Source: a virus. Taken from it: 28,445 nt of DNA. The DNA is taken from positions 1 through 28,445 of the IMG/VR virus record IMGVR_UViG_3300025809_001412; one strand, 5' to 3'. The notes under the pieces were generated by a model. The model made no database searches, had not been told where the DNA came from, and was given only the letters and a program-made list of their open reading frames with translations. Position 1 is the first letter of the stretch; every line of letters starts with the position of its first letter. Of the stretch, positions 1 to 28,445 are shown piece by piece. Both the position numbers and the translations under genes were made by a program.

Positions 1-140
1 CCACGACCACTTCACCGCCATTATTACCCTGTTGTAACTGTTTTACGCCTTGCTCTCCACCTATTCTTCTAACAGTAGCCCGATCCAATACAGCTTCACC
101 CCTGAGGACTCTCGCGCCCATTTCATCATTGGCCATTCCT
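1..140. repeat. Terminal direct repeat, left copy
   Basis: Bases 15-140 are identical to 28320-28445 at the other end of the window. Bases 3-13 also match; position 14 (a versus t) and positions 1-2 (cc versus tt) differ. The repeat lies inside the tape measure gene, whose reading frame continues across the joint. The simplest reading is that the contig closes into a circle of about 28,305 bp; a true biological terminal repeat cannot be excluded from sequence alone. Confidence 0.95.
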
Positions 141-1855
141 CCCATGTGAAAGCTTGGTGGTTGTTGTGAGCTAATTGTGGCCATTTGTGCCGCCCCGGTA
201 GCTCCAATCAAAGAAGCCAAGACCACTCCGCCCGGTCCTGGATAAGTGGCCAAAGCATTAACAATTCCCTTGGCTGTATTCATCGCCGTTTCAGCTAATG
301 CAGCACCTTGGCGGAGCGCGAAAACCTTGGCCGCCGCTTTTCCTTCATCTTTTGCATTACTTTCCACAAGATCAGCAATTCCACCTAACATATCAGAATA
401 AGCTAAGAATGTTTGATGGGCCACATCTAAAGATTTCTTCTTTTCCTTGTCAAGCTGATCTATTCTTGTCTCGTGAATTGCCTGGTTTCTTTCCGCCTCT
501 ATATTATCAATTGCTTCTTGTACTCCAGCTTGTTCTTCTGCCTTTTCGGCTAGCTCTTGGAGCCGTTCAATTTCCTTATCATATTTTAGATTAATTTGAT
601 CTATTTCGGAGCCGGAAATCTTTATCAATTCATCAGATAATTGTTCTCTTGCGGCCAAAATAGCATTTTCAGATTCGGCTTGTTTTCTTCTGAATTCTTC
701 TATATCACCTAATATTTGAGCTTCTCTTTCTGCTAACAAAACAGCTCTTTCCAAAGCTTCATTTCTATCTTTTTCGGCCTCGGCTAATCTCTCGGCTTCT
801 TCTGCCTGTTCAAATTCAAAATCAGCCAATTGGCCAGCCATTTCCACCGATGCTTCTTGCATCTTATTAAGGCCACCCAAATTCTTTTCCATTTCCGCTA
901 ATTGATTTTTAGCCTGTTCATACATTTGGAATAAGGCTTGGGCTTCTTTTGTTCCCTTTTGGGTAATATCTAAATTGTTACTCGCGGAGCTTGTTTGTAA
1001 TTGTAGCGTTCTCAATTGCTCTTTCTGTTCATCGGAAATCACCATTTGAGATGATCCAAGCTTTAAGGCTGAATTACCTAAGCGATTTACTAAATCTAAT
1101 TCTCTTTTCTTTTCTTGGATTAGCGTTTCTTGTGCCTGAATATTATCTTCTATCCCTTCAAAAGCTGCCCGTTGTGCCTGTTTAATTGCGTATTCATATT
1201 CACCAATTGCCCCGGTTACAAAATCGATTCTTTCTTCTAATTCTCTATAAGTAGAAGCGGCTTCTAACAGGTTATTTTCTTGGTCTTTCTGGGTATTAAT
1301 CAAAAGCTTTTGAGCTTCCCTGTATTCAAGAGTTAATTGTTTTACTCTCTCTAGTTCTTTTTTATGAGACTGATATCCTAGTGTAAGCGCTCCGATTGCA
1401 ATAGCAGCGGCGACCACATAAGGATTTAGATTCTTGAAGGACATTGTCAATCCTTCGGCTACTGCAAAAGTATCGGCCAGACCATCAGCAGCTTCCGCCA
1501 ATTGTGGATTCACTTCTCTAAGAGCTAAACCAACGGAAGAAAAACCGCGGTCGATATCTCCACTTGCATCTGCCACGCCCTCCATTTTATGCTCAGCTCT
1601 AGCGGCCGATTGTGCCATTAGATCAAATTCTTTGGCTCCTCTTGTGGCTGATCTGGAAGCGGCTTGGGCTGATTTCTTGTTTTGTTCAGAAGATTTCTTA
1701 GCAGCTTTTTCGGCTTGTTTGAGCTGTCTGTCAAGAGCGGCCACCATCTTCTTGGCTTCTTGATCTGTGATATTTGGGATTGATTTCAATTTAGCTTTTA
1801 AATCGGAAATATTGGCCTTGTATGAAATTTCAATGCTTTTCTTTTCGGTCGCCAT
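1..1855 (-). CDS. Tail tape measure protein (N-terminal 618 codons; rest at 28223-28445)
   Basis: This is the tape measure protein, which sets tail length and is packed inside the tail tube. It starts at ATG 1855 behind AGGGTG, two bases after the stop of the preceding gene. The frame runs off the left edge and continues through the repeated end to the stop at 28223, giving 645 residues in the closed molecule. The protein is long, helical and rich in Glu, Lys, Ala and Gln, with coiled-coil stretches over most of residues 10-480. A hydrophobic segment lies near residues 144-162 and an Ala/Gly-rich tract near 520-560. The C-terminal part with SFHMGGM followed by ARVLRGEAVLDR is typical of tape measures. 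Using the usual 0.15 nm per residue rule, a tail of roughly 95-100 nm is inferred. Its place after the G/GT chaperone pair fits the standard siphovirus order. Confidence 0.88.
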   Translation of the reverse strand, partial: MATEKKSIEISYKANISDLKAKLKSIPNITDQEAKKMVAALDRQLKQAEKAAKKSSEQNKKSAQAASRSATRGAKEFDLMAQSAARAEHKMEGVADASGDIDRGFSSVGLALREVNPQLAEAADGLADTFAVAEGLTMSFKNLNPYVVAAAIAIGALTLGYQSHKKELERVKQLTLEYREAQKLLINTQKDQENNLLEAASTYRELEERIDFVTGAIGEYEYAIKQAQRAAFEGIEDNIQAQETLIQEKKRELDLVNRLGNSALKLGSSQMVISDEQKEQLRTLQLQTSSASNNLDITQKGTKEAQALFQMYEQAKNQLAEMEKNLGGLNKMQEASVEMAGQLADFEFEQAEEAERLAEAEKDRNEALERAVLLAEREAQILGDIEEFRRKQAESENAILAAREQLSDELIKISGSEIDQINLKYDKEIERLQELAEKAEEQAGVQEAIDNIEAERNQAIHETRIDQLDKEKKKSLDVAHQTFLAYSDMLGGIADLVESNAKDEGKAAAKVFALRQGAALAETAMNTAKGIVNALATYPGPGGVVLASLIGATGAAQMATISSQQPPSFHMGGMANDEMGARVLRGEAVLDRATVRRIGGEQGVKQLQQGNNGGEVVV

Positions 1856-1857
1856 AA

Positions 1858-2331
1858 TTACACCCTTTTCATTAGATCATTCGCTAATGCTTTTACAATT
1901 TTATTGGAAGATTTATTTAACGGCTTAACCAATAATTCAGTAGCTGCCCTTCGACCTTGTGGTAATATGATCTCTTTTCCATCTTTATTTTTAGAATCTT
2001 CTCCAAATTTTATCGCCCAAGAGTAGGGAGCGTCATTCCTAAGAAAGACCTCAATTTGCCCATTGGCTGTAACCCTGATCCCCCTTCTAAATTTTTGATA
2101 TGACTTCTTAGAAGTCCTTCGGAAAAATACGATATTCCCTTCATTATCTTTCCGGATCATAGGCTTTCTTTTTGGCCAATCTTTTCGAGCTTCCTTTTCA
2201 ATTATAGATAATTGTTCATCCATAATTTTTTCAGCTCCGGGCGCTACGGTTTTCAGAAAATCCAAGAATACTTCTTCCATATCTTCCGAGATTCCCACGG
2301 TTGAATTTCCTGATTTGTAGTTTTTTGCCAT
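1858..2331 (-). CDS. Putative minor tail or tail-completion protein
   Basis: 157 residues, starting at ATG 2331, three bases after the stop of the G/GT frame and two bases ahead of the tape measure start. It is a soluble, basic protein: a helical N-terminal half (residues 15-60), a beta-rich middle with VFFRRTS and QIEVFLRNDAPYSWAIKFGED, and a helical C-terminus. The middle resembles the strand pattern of HK97 gp10-like tail completion proteins, which often contain an aromatic-Ala near a Phe-Gly pair. That family usually sits before the tail tube, however, not after the chaperones. I therefore give only a structural or assembly role, inferred mostly from its place between chaperone and tape measure. 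Confidence 0.5.
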   Translation of the reverse strand: MAKNYKSGNSTVGISEDMEEVFLDFLKTVAPGAEKIMDEQLSIIEKEARKDWPKRKPMIRKDNEGNIVFFRRTSKKSYQKFRRGIRVTANGQIEVFLRNDAPYSWAIKFGEDSKNKDGKEIILPQGRRAATELLVKPLNKSSNKIVKALANDLMKRV

Positions 2332-2333
2332 TT

Positions 2334-2896
2334 TTATTTTCCGATTTCTTTGGAGATCATTTCTTCCATTCTAGCCCTTTTCAAGGCCGATCGCCTATCT
2401 TTTATTTGTTCCGGGCTTGAATGTGCCAAACGATAATCCGCTAGAATCTTAACCTGGTTCTCTTGGCTTAAACTATAAAACCATTCGGGATCTTGATTCC
2501 AGTCCTTAGAAATGCGAATCGCTAAAAGATCAAGTGATCCTTTAGCACTTAGGAAAAATTTGCGGTTTGCTCCACATCATCTTCCGTTGGAATTGCTTTC
2601 ATCATTTCGACTAGAACAAGAGATCCCATTTCATAGACATCCGATAACAGAACACCACTTCCCAAAAGCCTATCCATTATCTTGTGACCAAACAATATAG
2701 GATCACCACTAGCTATTTTATAAGCCGGCAAGATTTTCGCGTGATCTACTCCCACGGCTATCGCTGCAGCACAAAGGCGGCCAAGCTGGGCCCGGTTTGG
2801 TTCGCTTCCCCAGATAGATACGAAATCCACACAAGTAGCCAAAGATTTCGGCATGTGGATTTCGTGTTCTCCTAACTTTTTTAAATTCAGCTTCAT
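2334..2896 (-). CDS. Tail assembly chaperone GT fusion made by -1 frameshift
   Basis: The downstream frame 2555-2334 has no start codon of its own but is open for 73 codons and ends at TAA three bases before the next gene. Slipping back one base on A AAT TTT (2561-2555) joins residue 114 of the upstream G protein to this frame and yields a 187-residue product. The added part begins FLSAKGSLDLLAIRISKDW and ends in a charged helix (KDRRSALKRARMEEMISKE). This is the architecture of lambda G/GT: G binds the tape measure, and the T extension recruits tail tube subunits. The location between tail tube and tape measure is exactly as expected. The fusion is inferred; the signal itself is visible in the sequence. 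Confidence 0.85.
2521..2561 (-). promoter_or_regulatory. Programmed -1 ribosomal frameshift signal
   Basis: On the minus strand the heptamer A AAT TTT (2561-2555) sits in the G frame as GCA AAT TTT and fits X XXY YYZ. Eight bases later (2554-2547, containing the zero-frame stop) a hairpin begins. GCTAAAGGAT (2546-2537) pairs with ATCTTTTAGC (2530-2521) with one G-U pair, and a further C-G pair closes a tetraloop. Slippery site, 8-base spacer and 11-bp stem match the standard layout of -1 frameshift signals. Confidence 0.85.
2549..2896 (-). CDS. Tail assembly chaperone G
   Basis: 115 residues, start ATG 2896 behind AAGAGGTACAAA. It is the zero-frame product of the G/GT pair and would be the more abundant form, coating the tape measure during tail assembly. 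The sequence is mostly helical, with MPKSLATCVDFVSIWGS near the start and an Ala-rich stretch (RLCAAAIAVGV). No catalytic motif is seen. The identification rests on gene order (tail tube, this gene, tape measure), on size and on the frameshift signal near its stop. Such small chaperones vary widely in sequence, so similarity alone would not identify it. Confidence 0.82.
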   Translation of the reverse strand: MKLNLKKLGEHEIHMPKSLATCVDFVSIWGSEPNRAQLGRLCAAAIAVGVDHAKILPAYKIASGDPILFGHKIMDRLLGSGVLLSDVYEMGSLVLVEMMKAIPTEDDVEQTANFS

Positions 2897-2923: not shown

Positions 2924-3433
2924 TTAAACTGGCCCAGTAACGACAGAACCACCGTAACAAGTGAAATTCAATGTGAAAGCACTTGGATCACCTTCCGCAA
3001 AATCCAAAGAACAAACACATTTTGATAATGTAACAGTATGATCCGCATCATCGCCAAAATCAGTTCCTTCCGCGGTGTATCTAAAATCAATACAGTAATG
3101 TTCTACATAAGGCACCCCGGTTACACCAGTAGAAATATTAGCACTATAATTCCCGGATTTATTGATAAAATCTCTAACCGATCCGGCTTCCGCTCCATCA
3201 GTAAATTGGCGGAAATGGAAAGAAAATGATCCAGTAATAGCTTGCTGATCTTGTTTTCGAATTGCGGAGAAATTACCACGATCCATTACGACAAGCTCAC
3301 TAAATTCATTTGGTTCTGAAAAAGAGAAGTTTCCATCTTCATAAGCTACTTCCAGAATCACTGGGGAACCAGTTCCATCGATTAGCTCTATTTTACCATC
3401 TCTTTTTGTTTTCGGTACGACTGAATAAGCCAT
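2924..3433 (-). CDS. Major tail tube protein
   Basis: 169 residues, start ATG 3433 with an AGGAG site. The protein is almost entirely beta-strand and turn, rich in Ser, Thr, Gly and Asp, with no membrane segment. Its strand pattern (KIELIDGTGSPVILEVAYEDGN, then GSFSFHFRQFTDG, then FTLNFTCYGGSV near the end) suits the beta-sandwich fold shared by siphovirus tail tube proteins. It is directly upstream of the G/GT chaperones, which is the normal place for the tube gene. A head decoration protein would also be beta-rich, but the context favours the tube. Confidence 0.75.
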   Translation of the reverse strand: MAYSVVPKTKRDGKIELIDGTGSPVILEVAYEDGNFSFSEPNEFSELVVMDRGNFSAIRKQDQQAITGSFSFHFRQFTDGAEAGSVRDFINKSGNYSANISTGVTGVPYVEHYCIDFRYTAEGTDFGDDADHTVTLSKCVCSLDFAEGDPSAFTLNFTCYGGSVVTGPV

Positions 3434-3884: not shown

Positions 3885-4645
3885 TATCTTCTTCTGCCTC
3901 GTGAGCTGCCAGGATTACAAAGATAAATTACAGGCTGTTTGGCTACTCTTTGATTTGGAGATTCAGAAGTTCCGGAATGATCAAAATCATAAATGAAATT
4001 TATTTGTTTCCACGCGTGATGATATTGTCTGAAATGTTCCCCGGCGAGATCCAAATAACGCCCGTTGGATTGGCCTAAGCTCGAATGGAAATCTCGGAAT
4101 ATATAATACAAAGTTAGATTCTGATGTGCTTCTCGGAATGATTCCGCGCTCATAACAAGATATTCCAGGCCACCACCTTCTTGTCTTAACTTCTGGATCA
4201 TTGTGTACCAAGCTTCATCTATATATGTTTGGTAGGAAGTTAGATTGGATGGTCTTATATCTGCCAGCTGAGAATAAGTGGAAGTTAGATCACCATCGGA
4301 TATCACTGGATATAATCTTCTCTTAACCAGGGCCGCGTTTCTTCTAAATATAAAGGGTGACCCTTCAAGCGTTACGGTCCATTCCTGGACATATCCTTCC
4401 CCTAAATTCAAGCTATCAGATAGAAGGGAAGCGGAATGTGTGTATTGTGGAATATTCCCCGGATAAGTAGCCGTGGCATTATCCACAGTTTTGGACCCAT
4501 CCGGAGCAATTAAAGTATACTTGACCCCAGTAGGAGAAACCAAAGCGCCATCCCGATATATCGGAAGTAGGGAAGTTTGTGATTTTCCTCTTTCCAATAA
4601 TTCTGGGACTTTTATTTGTGGAGCGTATGGAGTCGAAGAATTCAT
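3884..4645 (-). CDS. Putative head-tail connector component
   Basis: 253 residues. Its ATG at 4645 overlaps the preceding stop as ATGA. The first half is beta-rich, with VKYTLIAPDGSKT and VQEWTVTLEGSPFIFRRNAAL resembling an immunoglobulin-like sandwich. The second half is helical and aromatic (YQTYIDEAWYTMIQKLRQEG, AHQNLTLYYIFRDF) and contains LAGEHFRQYHHAWKQ. The C-terminus is short and basic (SSRGRRR). I do not recognise the family. Lying between capsid and tail genes in an overlapping set, it is most likely a neck or adaptor protein, possibly with its Ig-like part exposed on the virion. Confidence 0.5.
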   Translation of the reverse strand: MNSSTPYAPQIKVPELLERGKSQTSLLPIYRDGALVSPTGVKYTLIAPDGSKTVDNATATYPGNIPQYTHSASLLSDSLNLGEGYVQEWTVTLEGSPFIFRRNAALVKRRLYPVISDGDLTSTYSQLADIRPSNLTSYQTYIDEAWYTMIQKLRQEGGGLEYLVMSAESFREAHQNLTLYYIFRDFHSSLGQSNGRYLDLAGEHFRQYHHAWKQINFIYDFDHSGTSESPNQRVAKQPVIYLCNPGSSRGRRR

Positions 4646-6513: not shown

Positions 6514-7881
6514 TTACATAGAAACTAAGATCTTTAGTCCTGTTTTATTTGTTCCTGCTTTAATTTTACAGTTGTTTCCATCTGTTAATTGAACATCCAA
6601 TTGAACCAAATTGTCATTAGAGTCATAAGCTGACACATGAACAAATTTCTTTCCTAATTGATGATTCAATGTAAGGAAAGTATTAGCTGTTAAGCTGATA
6701 GCGTTAAATTCTGTTCTAAGATCATTAAGATCAACCGAAAGATTACCGTTTGCATCGTTGTAATTCAAAATGTTTTCTGCAATAGCAGAATCAATCTGAA
6801 CAGCAGCACGAGCACGAGCATCAGTGTAATAAAGGTTAGTTCCTTCCGCTACATCATCAGTATCAGCAGCCAAAGAGATAACACCAGAAGCATAAGCAAG
6901 GCCGGACCCTGAAATGCTGATAGCACTTTGAGCACGAGCTTCTGTGAAGTAAAGGTTAGTCCCTTCTGTCACATCGCCAGTATTTCCAGTGAAAGAGTAA
7001 TCGCCACCGCTAAAAGTTAAACCACTTCCAGCTGAGAACTGATTAAAAACACCAGACAAAGGAACAGACAAATTACCTGTTGCTTGATCTACTGATAACA
7101 ATTGAATTTCTGGACCAACAACCGAAGCAGCTTGAACAGATCCACGCGCGCGAGCTTGAGTGAAATAAAGGTTAGTTCCTTCTGCCACATCATCAGTATC
7201 AGCATTTAAAGAGATAACTCCGGCAGCATAAGCCAAGCCAGAACCTGAGATGCTAATAGCACCTTGGGCACGAGCATCTGTGAAATAAAGGTTACTTGCA
7301 CCTTCGCCGACTCCATCAGTATCCGCATTGAAAGAAAATACACCGTTAGAAGCATCATAAGCCAAGCCAGAACCAGCAGAAAAGAATCCTTTGATATCTG
7401 TTGAATCCGCTTGAATTGCTCCGGTAGAAGAATTGTAAATAATTCCGGTTCCGCCTGAGAAATACGATCGAACTTCTGATCCCGAAACATCCGAGCCTTG
7501 AATTTCTGTAAAATCTGCAGTTGTTCCAGCGCTTCCACCATTATGGATGAAAGTTTCAGTACGATCTGAGCTTGTATTTGTGAGGATTAACATGTCCCCT
7601 TCTTGAAGCTCATTTCCAGCTGAATAATTATTAGTTACCCAATCAGCCAAAGAAGTTTCAACGGCATCAACGCTAACATCAGTTACAGCCAAAGACTTAA
7701 TTTTAAGTTGCTTTTCGCCATTAACGATTAGAGTTTCAGCAAGGACAGAAGAATCGCTATGGATTCCCATAATTGCATTTGCTTCGAGCCAAGATTTTCG
7801 GACCGCGTGATTATCTGCCGAGGGATCATTTTCGAGCTGAACGCTACCTTCAAAAATTACATTAGGATTAAAAAAATTCAT
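6514..7881 (-). CDS. Repetitive head-fibre or decoration protein
   Basis: 455 residues, start ATG 7881 behind GGAG. Residues 130-360 are built of Gly/Ser/Ala-rich repeats. NLYFTDAR-type motifs occur at about 197-203, 237-244, 309-316 and 349-356 (the last NLYYTDAR), each paired with SGSGLAYASGVISL-like segments. Such repeats are well known in phage fibre and appendage proteins. The C-terminal 55 residues (FLTLNHQLGKKFVHVSAYD onward) form a separate beta domain that resembles the 70-residue gene at 7938. The gene sits between scaffold and capsid rather than in the tail region. I therefore infer a capsid-attached fibre, although a tail or baseplate fibre is possible. A strong terminator follows it. 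Confidence 0.65.
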   Translation of the reverse strand: MNFFNPNVIFEGSVQLENDPSADNHAVRKSWLEANAIMGIHSDSSVLAETLIVNGEKQLKIKSLAVTDVSVDAVETSLADWVTNNYSAGNELQEGDMLILTNTSSDRTETFIHNGGSAGTTADFTEIQGSDVSGSEVRSYFSGGTGIIYNSSTGAIQADSTDIKGFFSAGSGLAYDASNGVFSFNADTDGVGEGASNLYFTDARAQGAISISGSGLAYAAGVISLNADTDDVAEGTNLYFTQARARGSVQAASVVGPEIQLLSVDQATGNLSVPLSGVFNQFSAGSGLTFSGGDYSFTGNTGDVTEGTNLYFTEARAQSAISISGSGLAYASGVISLAADTDDVAEGTNLYYTDARARAAVQIDSAIAENILNYNDANGNLSVDLNDLRTEFNAISLTANTFLTLNHQLGKKFVHVSAYDSNDNLVQLDVQLTDGNNCKIKAGTNKTGLKILVSM

Positions 7882-21908: not shown

Positions 21909-22421
21909 ATGCACAAACAAAAAAGAATATCACGCGGTGAAAAAAACTTTCAAAAATATATAATCCCAAGCTTGAAAGAAGAATTTCCCGGAGTTTGGCA
22001 GAGTACCAATAGAACGCTAGTCGATATGAAATATGGAATAGATTTCTATTATACCCACGGACAAGAAACTCTCTCAATAGCAGCTCGTGTCTGGAACTGT
22101 CATCCCAAGCCACATTTTTCCGCTAGATGGAAGAAGAATCAGGACCCAAAACAACCCTTGGAAGTTGCTTCTCGATTGAAAGGATTAAAGAATGGATTAC
22201 CTATGAGTAATTTAACGATAGAAGGGTTTATTTGGGATCGGTGGATCTATGTGGCTTGGATTGATTCAAAGCTTCTTTGGGAGGCCGTGGAAGTTAATTT
22301 GGAGAACTTGAATCATTTCCCTGTAAAGAATCAAGAAGGAGGACACACGCTCTTTAAGCAAGTTCCTTTTGATCTATTCAGCCCCGAATCAATAAAGAAG
22401 AAGGTCCAGGCTATAATTTAG
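21909..22421 (+). CDS. Lone plus-strand protein, possible nuclease-like fold
   Basis: 170 residues, start ATG 21909 with GGGA upstream. The N-terminus is basic (MHKQKRISRGEKNFQKYIIP). The segment DMKYGIDFYYTHGQETLSIAARVW (40-63) has a strand-Asp-strand-Arg arrangement that faintly resembles PD-(D/E)XK nucleases, with Asp in GIDF and SIAAR where ExK is usual. If so, key residues are altered. The rest is Trp-rich alpha/beta (GFIWDRWIYVAWIDSKLLWE). It has its own promoter, runs opposite to its neighbours and overlaps the holin-like gene tail to tail by 11 bases. This suggests a separately controlled accessory or early gene. The nuclease idea is weak. Confidence 0.6.
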   Translation: MHKQKRISRGEKNFQKYIIPSLKEEFPGVWQSTNRTLVDMKYGIDFYYTHGQETLSIAARVWNCHPKPHFSARWKKNQDPKQPLEVASRLKGLKNGLPMSNLTIEGFIWDRWIYVAWIDSKLLWEAVEVNLENLNHFPVKNQEGGHTLFKQVPFDLFSPESIKKKVQAII

Positions 22422-22689
22422 ATTTTATTTGGATCACATCTTCTTTTATGGACTTCACTTCTTTTCCCACATCTTTGATTTCAATCGTTACATCAAATAT
22501 AGATTTCTTGTATATTTCGCGGTCGAAGGAATGTTCCTGGATAACTTTATCAAATTGATCCAAGTGTCTATTTACCCAAGTTGGAAGATGCTGTCCAATC
22601 CATCTCCCCACAATAAACAACGCCATAAGAGATAGGACCAGCGCGCCAACGGGTCCGGTGAGAAGTTGAATCCATACCTGGTCATTCAT
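22411..22689 (-). CDS. Holin-like membrane protein with coiled coil
   Basis: 92 residues from ATG 22689, which overlaps the amidase stop as ATGA; an in-frame TTG at 22701 is an alternative. Residues 8-32 (QLLTGPVGALVLSLMALFIV plus GRWIG) form one membrane span. Residues 60-92 are a charged coiled coil (IKDVGKEVKSIKEDVIQIKS). One span plus a charged cytoplasmic tail next to an endolysin gene fits class III-like holins or the haemolysin XhlA-like group, which work with an amidase to release it at lysis. Membrane topology is clear; the holin role is inferred from context. Confidence 0.65.
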   Translation of the reverse strand: MNDQVWIQLLTGPVGALVLSLMALFIVGRWIGQHLPTWVNRHLDQFDKVIQEHSFDREIYKKSIFDVTIEIKDVGKEVKSIKEDVIQIKSKL

Positions 22690-23270
22690 CGCATTATCCA
22701 ATTTTTAACGCCCTGAGATATCCCAAGAGCTATTTGTTTCATCCCATTATCCGTTAATAGCTCTTGATGTGTGTCCATAAATATCGGTTCACAGCAAATA
22801 GCCACGGGTCTTCCGACCCCTTTAATCGTATAATAGGCGTTTTTTGTCCAGTCAGTACCCTGACAAGAAATCGGCTTTACTCTTTTCAACAATTGAATGT
22901 TCTTCTGCAACTCTAAAGAAATTTCTTCCGCTAGTTGTTTTCCATTTACTGAACTATGATGATAGAAGAAACTACCATAATCACCGCCGCCGGCGTTCAA
23001 GTGTAAAGCTAGATAGATACTATCCAAAGAGCCTATCGCGTAATTATTGACTCTTTTGTGGCGTTCAGCGTATGATCCATCTGATATGGGGATCACATTA
23101 TAACCCAGCTCTAAAAGTAAAATTTCAAGCTCTAAAGATAATTTGCCTGTCCAAATTGCTTCTTTTTCAGCCCAAGATATTAAACCATCGCCATTTATAT
23201 CTTGGCCAGCGCCTCTATCTGAAACTCTCTTGGGTTTTCCGGCGTGTTGTCTATCTAAGAATATTAACAT
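22686..23270 (-). CDS. N-acetylmuramoyl-L-alanine amidase (Amidase_3) endolysin with EF-hand loop
   Basis: 194 residues, start ATG 23270 behind AGGG. It is a zinc amidase that cuts the bond between MurNAc and the stem peptide. H9 (FLDRQHAGK), a Glu at 35 or 37, and H90 (LALHLNAGG) are the zinc ligands. E161 (CCEPIFMD) is the catalytic Glu. There is no signal peptide, membrane anchor or wall-binding domain, so it needs a holin and suits a Gram-negative-type wall. Residues 24-35 (DINGDGLISWAE) match the 12-residue EF-hand consensus, with D24, N26, D28, S32 and E35 as calcium ligands. It lies inside the loop after the first zinc ligand. The adjacent holin-like gene is co-translated. Confidence 0.9.
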   Translation of the reverse strand: MLIFLDRQHAGKPKRVSDRGAGQDINGDGLISWAEKEAIWTGKLSLELEILLLELGYNVIPISDGSYAERHKRVNNYAIGSLDSIYLALHLNAGGGDYGSFFYHHSSVNGKQLAEEISLELQKNIQLLKRVKPISCQGTDWTKNAYYTIKGVGRPVAICCEPIFMDTHQELLTDNGMKQIALGISQGVKNWIMR

Positions 23271-28223: not shown

Positions 28224-28445
28224 TACATTCCCCTCATTCCGGTTTTTCTTGGAGTCTTAAATCCGATTTCTCTTGCGAACCGCCCAAAGTGTTTAAACGG
28301 TTGGATTACGACCACTTCTCCGCCATTATTACCCTGTTGTAACTGTTTTACGCCTTGCTCTCCACCTATTCTTCTAACAGTAGCCCGATCCAATACAGCT
28401 TCACCCCTGAGGACTCTCGCGCCCATTTCATCATTGGCCATTCCT
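28223..28445 (-). CDS. Tail tape measure protein, C-terminal part (continues from 1-1855)
   Basis: This is the last 74 codons, including stop, of the tape measure gene that begins at 1855 and crosses the contig joint. An ATG at 28441 is an internal Met in GGMANDEMGARVLRGEAVLD, not a start. The end is basic (FAREIGFKTPRKTGMRGM). The stop TAA shares one base with the start of the large tail protein, so both are translationally coupled. Confidence 0.85.
   Translation of the reverse strand, partial: GMANDEMGARVLRGEAVLDRATVRRIGGEQGVKQLQQGNNGGEVVVIQPFKHFGRFAREIGFKTPRKTGMRGM
28306..28445. repeat. Terminal direct repeat, right copy
   Basis: Copy of bases 1-140; identical from 28320 to 28445. The differing positions 28319 and 28307 are synonymous third-codon positions in the tape measure gene (GGA/GGT and GTA/GTG), which suggests real strain variation at the contig end rather than error. 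Confidence 0.95.

Follow-up and report, generated by a model that had tools for sequence, protein, structure and literature searches.

A probable lambda-type G/GT -1 ribosomal frameshift in a family of uncultured phages

Introduction

Why should a short structural gene of a phage end beside an open stretch of the -1 frame that seems to have no start of its own and runs right up to the next gene? The question is raised by the IMG/VR record IMGVR_UViG_3300025809_001412, whose 28,445 bases were analysed in full (hereafter, the window) and which has its structural genes on the minus strand. The record belongs to a bacterial virus known from environmental DNA alone. Its ends overlap by about 140 bases (1-140 versus 28306-28445, 137 identical) and the tape measure gene spans the cut; from this overlap, the record is probably one complete genome, circular or circularly permuted.

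G/GT-type frameshifting is a well-known trick of long-tailed phages, and the initial annotation had proposed that a signal of this kind joins two tail chaperones here. On the evidence of sequence comparison, we consider that the locus carries a lambda-type G/GT -1 programmed ribosomal frameshift, a known kind of event in a new family, with a probability of about 0.9. The signal, its conservation, the switch of frame and the gene order are direct observations.

The locus and its neighbourhood

The putative signal and the two coding parts that it would join are composed of the following elements:

2552..2896, minus strand: G, 115 codons (115 aa), the upstream product, a predicted tail assembly chaperone, with a AGAGGTAC-type Shine-Dalgarno sequence upstream
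2555..2561, minus strand: slippery heptamer A AAT TTT, which the G frame reads as X XXY YYZ (GCA AAT TTT TCC TAA)
2549..2551, minus strand: zero-frame stop TAA, 3 nt past the heptamer
2521..2546, minus strand: hairpin of 11 bp with an ACUU tetraloop, presumed frameshift stimulator
2334..2555, minus strand: -1 frame extension, T-like, which starts with the last T of the heptamer and comprises 73 codons, then TAA (2336-2334)

The -1 frame is indeed open for the 73 codons first claimed, up to the next ATG, at 2331, which is the start of a 157-aa gene and not of the tape measure. The size given for the fusion of G and its extension, 187 aa, was likewise confirmed, and the false gap that an ordinary annotation would leave, put at about 200 bases, amounts to 217 nt (2548-2332). 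The claim that the downstream frame has no start codon stands in effect, none being found in its first 42 codons in the window, though not to the letter: the first ATG, GTG or TTG is a TTG at 2429, 42 codons past the slip site and in the middle of a conserved domain, and two ATGs stand near the C-terminus. This conserved domain, which the extension constitutes, has a mean column identity of 64% among the relatives described below, with W19, P23, W25, Y27 and other residues invariant. For all members of this family of uncultured phages the annotation would be corrected accordingly, as otherwise the fusion would be missed and a gap left in its place.

Around these elements, the window contains:

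2924..3433, minus strand: predicted major tail tube, 169 aa, directly upstream of G, named by position
1858..2331, minus strand: gene of 157 aa, lying after GT and before the tape measure, present in 97/97 loci with G and tape measure
1..1855, minus strand: tape measure, so named for its position, its size and a coiled-coil-like sequence

The tape measure runs past the low end of the window, its last part being repeated at 28441-28223, and the complete tape measure ORFs among the relatives comprise 638-704 codons. The names of the tail tube and the tape measure rest on position and size rather than on profile; of the structural proteins scanned, only two had significant matches, namely the large terminase subunit, in both Pfam and PHROGs, and the major head protein, in PHROGs. 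The order tail tube (where present), G, -1 part, 157-aa gene and tape measure is found in all 97 loci that contain both G and a tape measure, and three more head-tail genes usually accompany the G loci, also in constant order. The place between GT and the tape measure, occupied in all relatives by the 157-aa gene (no match in a Pfam search), is an unusual site for an extra gene.

Relatives and the switch of reading frame

Relatives were gathered from IMG/VR and from one bacterial metagenome-assembled genome (MAG) with G, the major head protein and the G alignment as bait; the heptamer was never used for this purpose. Profile searches recovered 117 loci with G and 111 with the -1 part, the latter reducing to 64 distinct G-to-extension sequences. 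When G (from the window and from the relatives L033 and L052) and the major head protein were compared with 50,697 phage records, no match was obtained, nor was there a DNA match, and the family has no isolated phage representative in the collection searched. The only cellular match is one Rhodospirillaceae MAG contig, a weak indication of the host.

The second part lies in the -1 frame in 64 of the 64 distinct relatives. Furthermore, in 33 representatives less than 90% alike, substitutions are concentrated at third codon positions, those of the G frame ahead of the heptamer and those of the -1 frame beyond it; the frame under protein-level selection thus switches by -1 at the heptamer. As the records are metagenome assemblies, one could think of a sequencing or assembly error, or of a decayed gene, splitting what was a single ORF. 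The relatives refute this idea, and we give it a negligible probability: the identical -1 split occurs at the same codons in all 64 distinct sequences, which come from many metagenomes, and the protein sequence of each part is under constraint.

It could also be imagined that two separate proteins are made, the -1 part being translated from an internal start of its own or by ribosomes that re-initiate once G has ended, and in fact one clade (e.g., L025, L029 and L038) has an ATG 42 nt past the heptamer start. However, this ATG is absent from the window and from many relatives, no clear Shine-Dalgarno sequence precedes it at a conserved place, and a start at this point would remove the conserved beginning of the domain. 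No start codon common to the whole family was found for the extension among the relatives, and the GTG that follows the TAA in the window belongs to the G frame, not to the -1 frame. Since separate initiation would moreover leave the invariant heptamer codons unexplained, we regard it as extremely unlikely.

The slippery heptamer

Motifs of the form XXXYYYZ are frequent, 204 of them occurring on the coding strand of the window; as the motif alone is so common, conservation is the test that lifts this particular heptamer above chance. Relatives that keep the frame but lose the heptamer had been named at the outset as grounds for rejecting the signal. The search for them gave the opposite picture: A AAT TTT, exact and in phase, is present in 63 of the 64 distinct relatives, all of which keep the -1 arrangement. 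The sole exception, L074 (region 4263-4400), reads GCG GAT TTT TCC TAA, i.e., it has the heptamer G GAT TTT. A run of eight G lies shortly downstream in this relative, because of which its sequence may be less certain.

The strongest evidence is the choice of codons. Across the 63 sequences no synonymous alternative is used in the three codons of the heptamer: Asn is AAT in 63/63, Phe is TTT in 63/63, and Ala, where present, is GCA in 61/61, the remaining two having Thr ACA. At other near-invariant residues of G the commonest codon is used in only 26-83% of the sequences, with one exception (Lys AAA, 97%), and genewide use amounts to 72% for AAT, 68% for TTT and 35% for GCA. Codons fixed beyond what the protein demands can be explained by a function at the nucleotide level.

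Some transcriptional slippage sites are A/T runs, and AAATTTTT is a homopolymer pair, which makes it conceivable that RNA polymerase, slipping on the A3T5 run, and not the ribosome, changes the frame. But the runs are short, many relatives having only AAATTTTA, with four T, the site invariably falls into the codons of G as X XXY YYZ, and structure follows it, all of which fits ribosomal slippage; the polymerase is, in our estimation, a most improbable agent. Taken together, the frozen codons, the frame switch and the lack of a shared start make independent initiation, re-initiation, assembly error and transcriptional slippage poor rivals of the ribosomal frameshift.

The zero-frame stop follows the heptamer at 0, 3, 18 or 21 nt in these 63 relatives (7, 10, 25 or 28 counted from heptamer start to stop), the distance of 3 nt being shared by the window and 21 other distinct relatives.

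The downstream structure

In the window, the heptamer is separated by a spacer of 8 nt, TCCTAAGT (2554-2547), from a hairpin with the stem GCUAAAGGAUC/GAUCUUUUAGC, of 11 bp including one G-U, to which a twelfth U-G pair could be added. Its minimum free energy is -14.8 kcal/mol versus -6.8 +/- 2.2 for dinucleotide shuffles (z -3.6), and 0 of 200 shuffles were as stable. The window thus has a stable structure 8 nt past the heptamer, within the 5-9 nt looked for in a -1 frameshift with a 3' stimulatory structure, and the signal first described at the end of G, made up of heptamer, 8-base spacer and 11-bp tetraloop hairpin, proved right in its coordinates and phase.

The proposal that the stem is conserved fared less uniformly. 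What holds throughout the family is an enrichment: in sliding windows over the 33 representatives, predicted structure is strongest from 0 to +80 nt past the heptamer (mean z of about -1.5, about -16 kcal/mol), as against about -4 to -14 kcal/mol elsewhere, and the signal drops to about -7 kcal/mol and weaker from +60 on. The 11-bp hairpin of the window, in turn, is clearly kept only in its nearest relative, L003, where all 11 pairs persist despite four changed bases, one pair having changed on both sides (A-U to G-C) and two on one side only. It is lost in L004, which is 76% identical across the fusion and has the heptamer without a good stem; the stems are weak too in L047, L059, L075 and L112, and other clades have different ones, such as the two-part stem of the L049/L052 group. 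Downstream structure is a real tendency of the family and not one conserved hairpin, and its conservation falls short of that of the heptamer. The stem may even be, in part, a by-product of coding for the conserved LDLLA residues.

Some 60 natural variants, with the heptamer fixed and both stop position and stem varying, constitute good material for studying what sets the ratio of G to GT.

Identity of the products

That G and GT are tail assembly chaperones is predicted from the position of the genes, the sizes of the products and the conserved frameshift. Searches of PHROGs gave no match for the G or the -1 part of the window, and fold searches (Foldseek, VIA-align) of PDB and viral model libraries gave nothing decisive; for a named chaperone family, the profile and fold searches yielded only matches that were under threshold or unrelated. 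The best Foldseek match for G is an uncharacterised protein of an uncultured marine virus (E 0.054, TM 0.74). The designed TIM barrels that appeared as PDB sequence matches are spurious. Weak matches to the Pfam family Phage_Gp15 (PF06854) were obtained for 4 of 22 extensions (E 0.01-0.02, under the curated cut-off), the extension of L027 aligning to the C-terminal part of the profile (112-165 of 170); membership of this family was rejected, with 15 bits versus a cut-off of 23.

These results leave room for a frameshift that is real but whose products are not tail chaperones, as for neither G nor GT did sequence or fold searches give a significant match to a known chaperone, and the 157-aa gene stands between GT and the tape measure. 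Nevertheless, we find this reading very unlikely. The pair is placed between tail tube and tape measure and its products have 115 and 187 aa; the AlphaFold model of G is helical (mean pLDDT 85.6) and that of the -1 part is confident and helical too; and the extension is weakly similar to Phage_Gp15. In addition, known chaperone pairs likewise share little sequence (PMC5009743). The chaperone assignment made at first sight is thus upheld by gene position, sizes and conserved frameshift, but not by any significant profile or fold match.

Proposed mechanism and known systems

We infer that slippage occurs, at a rate that leaves most ribosomes in the zero frame, and that the two products act as chaperones. 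The majority of ribosomes would terminate at the TAA, releasing the 115-aa G chaperone. A minority would be held up by the hairpin while tRNA-Asn occupies AAT and tRNA-Phe occupies TTT; both tRNAs would then slip one base back, from AAT to AAA and from TTT to TTT, and the ribosome would continue in the -1 frame, the product being the GT fusion of 187 aa. By analogy with lambda, the tape measure protein would be coated by many copies of G and few of GT, the latter recruiting the tail tube protein through its T-like tail.

The lambda heptamer is G GGA AAG, whereas the phage described here has A AAT TTT and a strong hairpin. Common to both are a short gene flanked by those for the tail tube and the tape measure, a -1 slip (here predicted) at an X XXY YYZ heptamer near the end of this gene, and a -1 frame extension without its own start. 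They differ, besides the heptamer, in the one extra gene, of 157 aa, which here precedes the tape measure, and in the lack of detectable sequence similarity of the present G/GT to profiled chaperones. The gpG/gpGT mechanism of lambda tail assembly (Levin 1993; Xu, Hendrix and Duda 2004, 2013, 2014) is reviewed in PMC5009743.

The position of the stop codon suggests another likeness. In RNA2 of pea enation mosaic virus the shift takes place at G_GAU_UUU_UGG_UAG, and there the change of the stop to a sense codon strongly affects it (PMC5009743). Its heptamer is that of the relative L074, and its stop 3 nt past the heptamer has a counterpart in the window and 21 other distinct relatives; being a plant RNA virus, with another gene at the site, it provides an analogy only. 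A further paper in which AAATTTT occurs (PMC10299305) deals with a Wolbachia hydrolase and is not relevant here.

It is tempting, though on balance unlikely, that the shift ratio is set chiefly by the frozen heptamer and, in one branch, also by the stop 3 nt past it, the downstream structure being free to change shape or vanish. If true, bacteria would offer a parallel to pea enation mosaic virus, with its stop-dependent shift.

Other features of the genome

A scan of the window for Rfam families and tRNAs found none. Two N6/N4 DNA methyltransferase genes (PF01555; 13633-14580 and 14924-15565, minus strand) lie near each other and adjoin the terminase genes. A probable endolysin is encoded at 22686-23270 (minus strand) as an N-acetylmuramoyl-L-alanine amidase (PF01520), after which comes a small gene of 96 aa (22411-22701). 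Finally, a 455-aa repeat-containing, fibre-like protein is encoded at 6514-7881 (minus strand), just upstream of the major head gene, which is an odd location.
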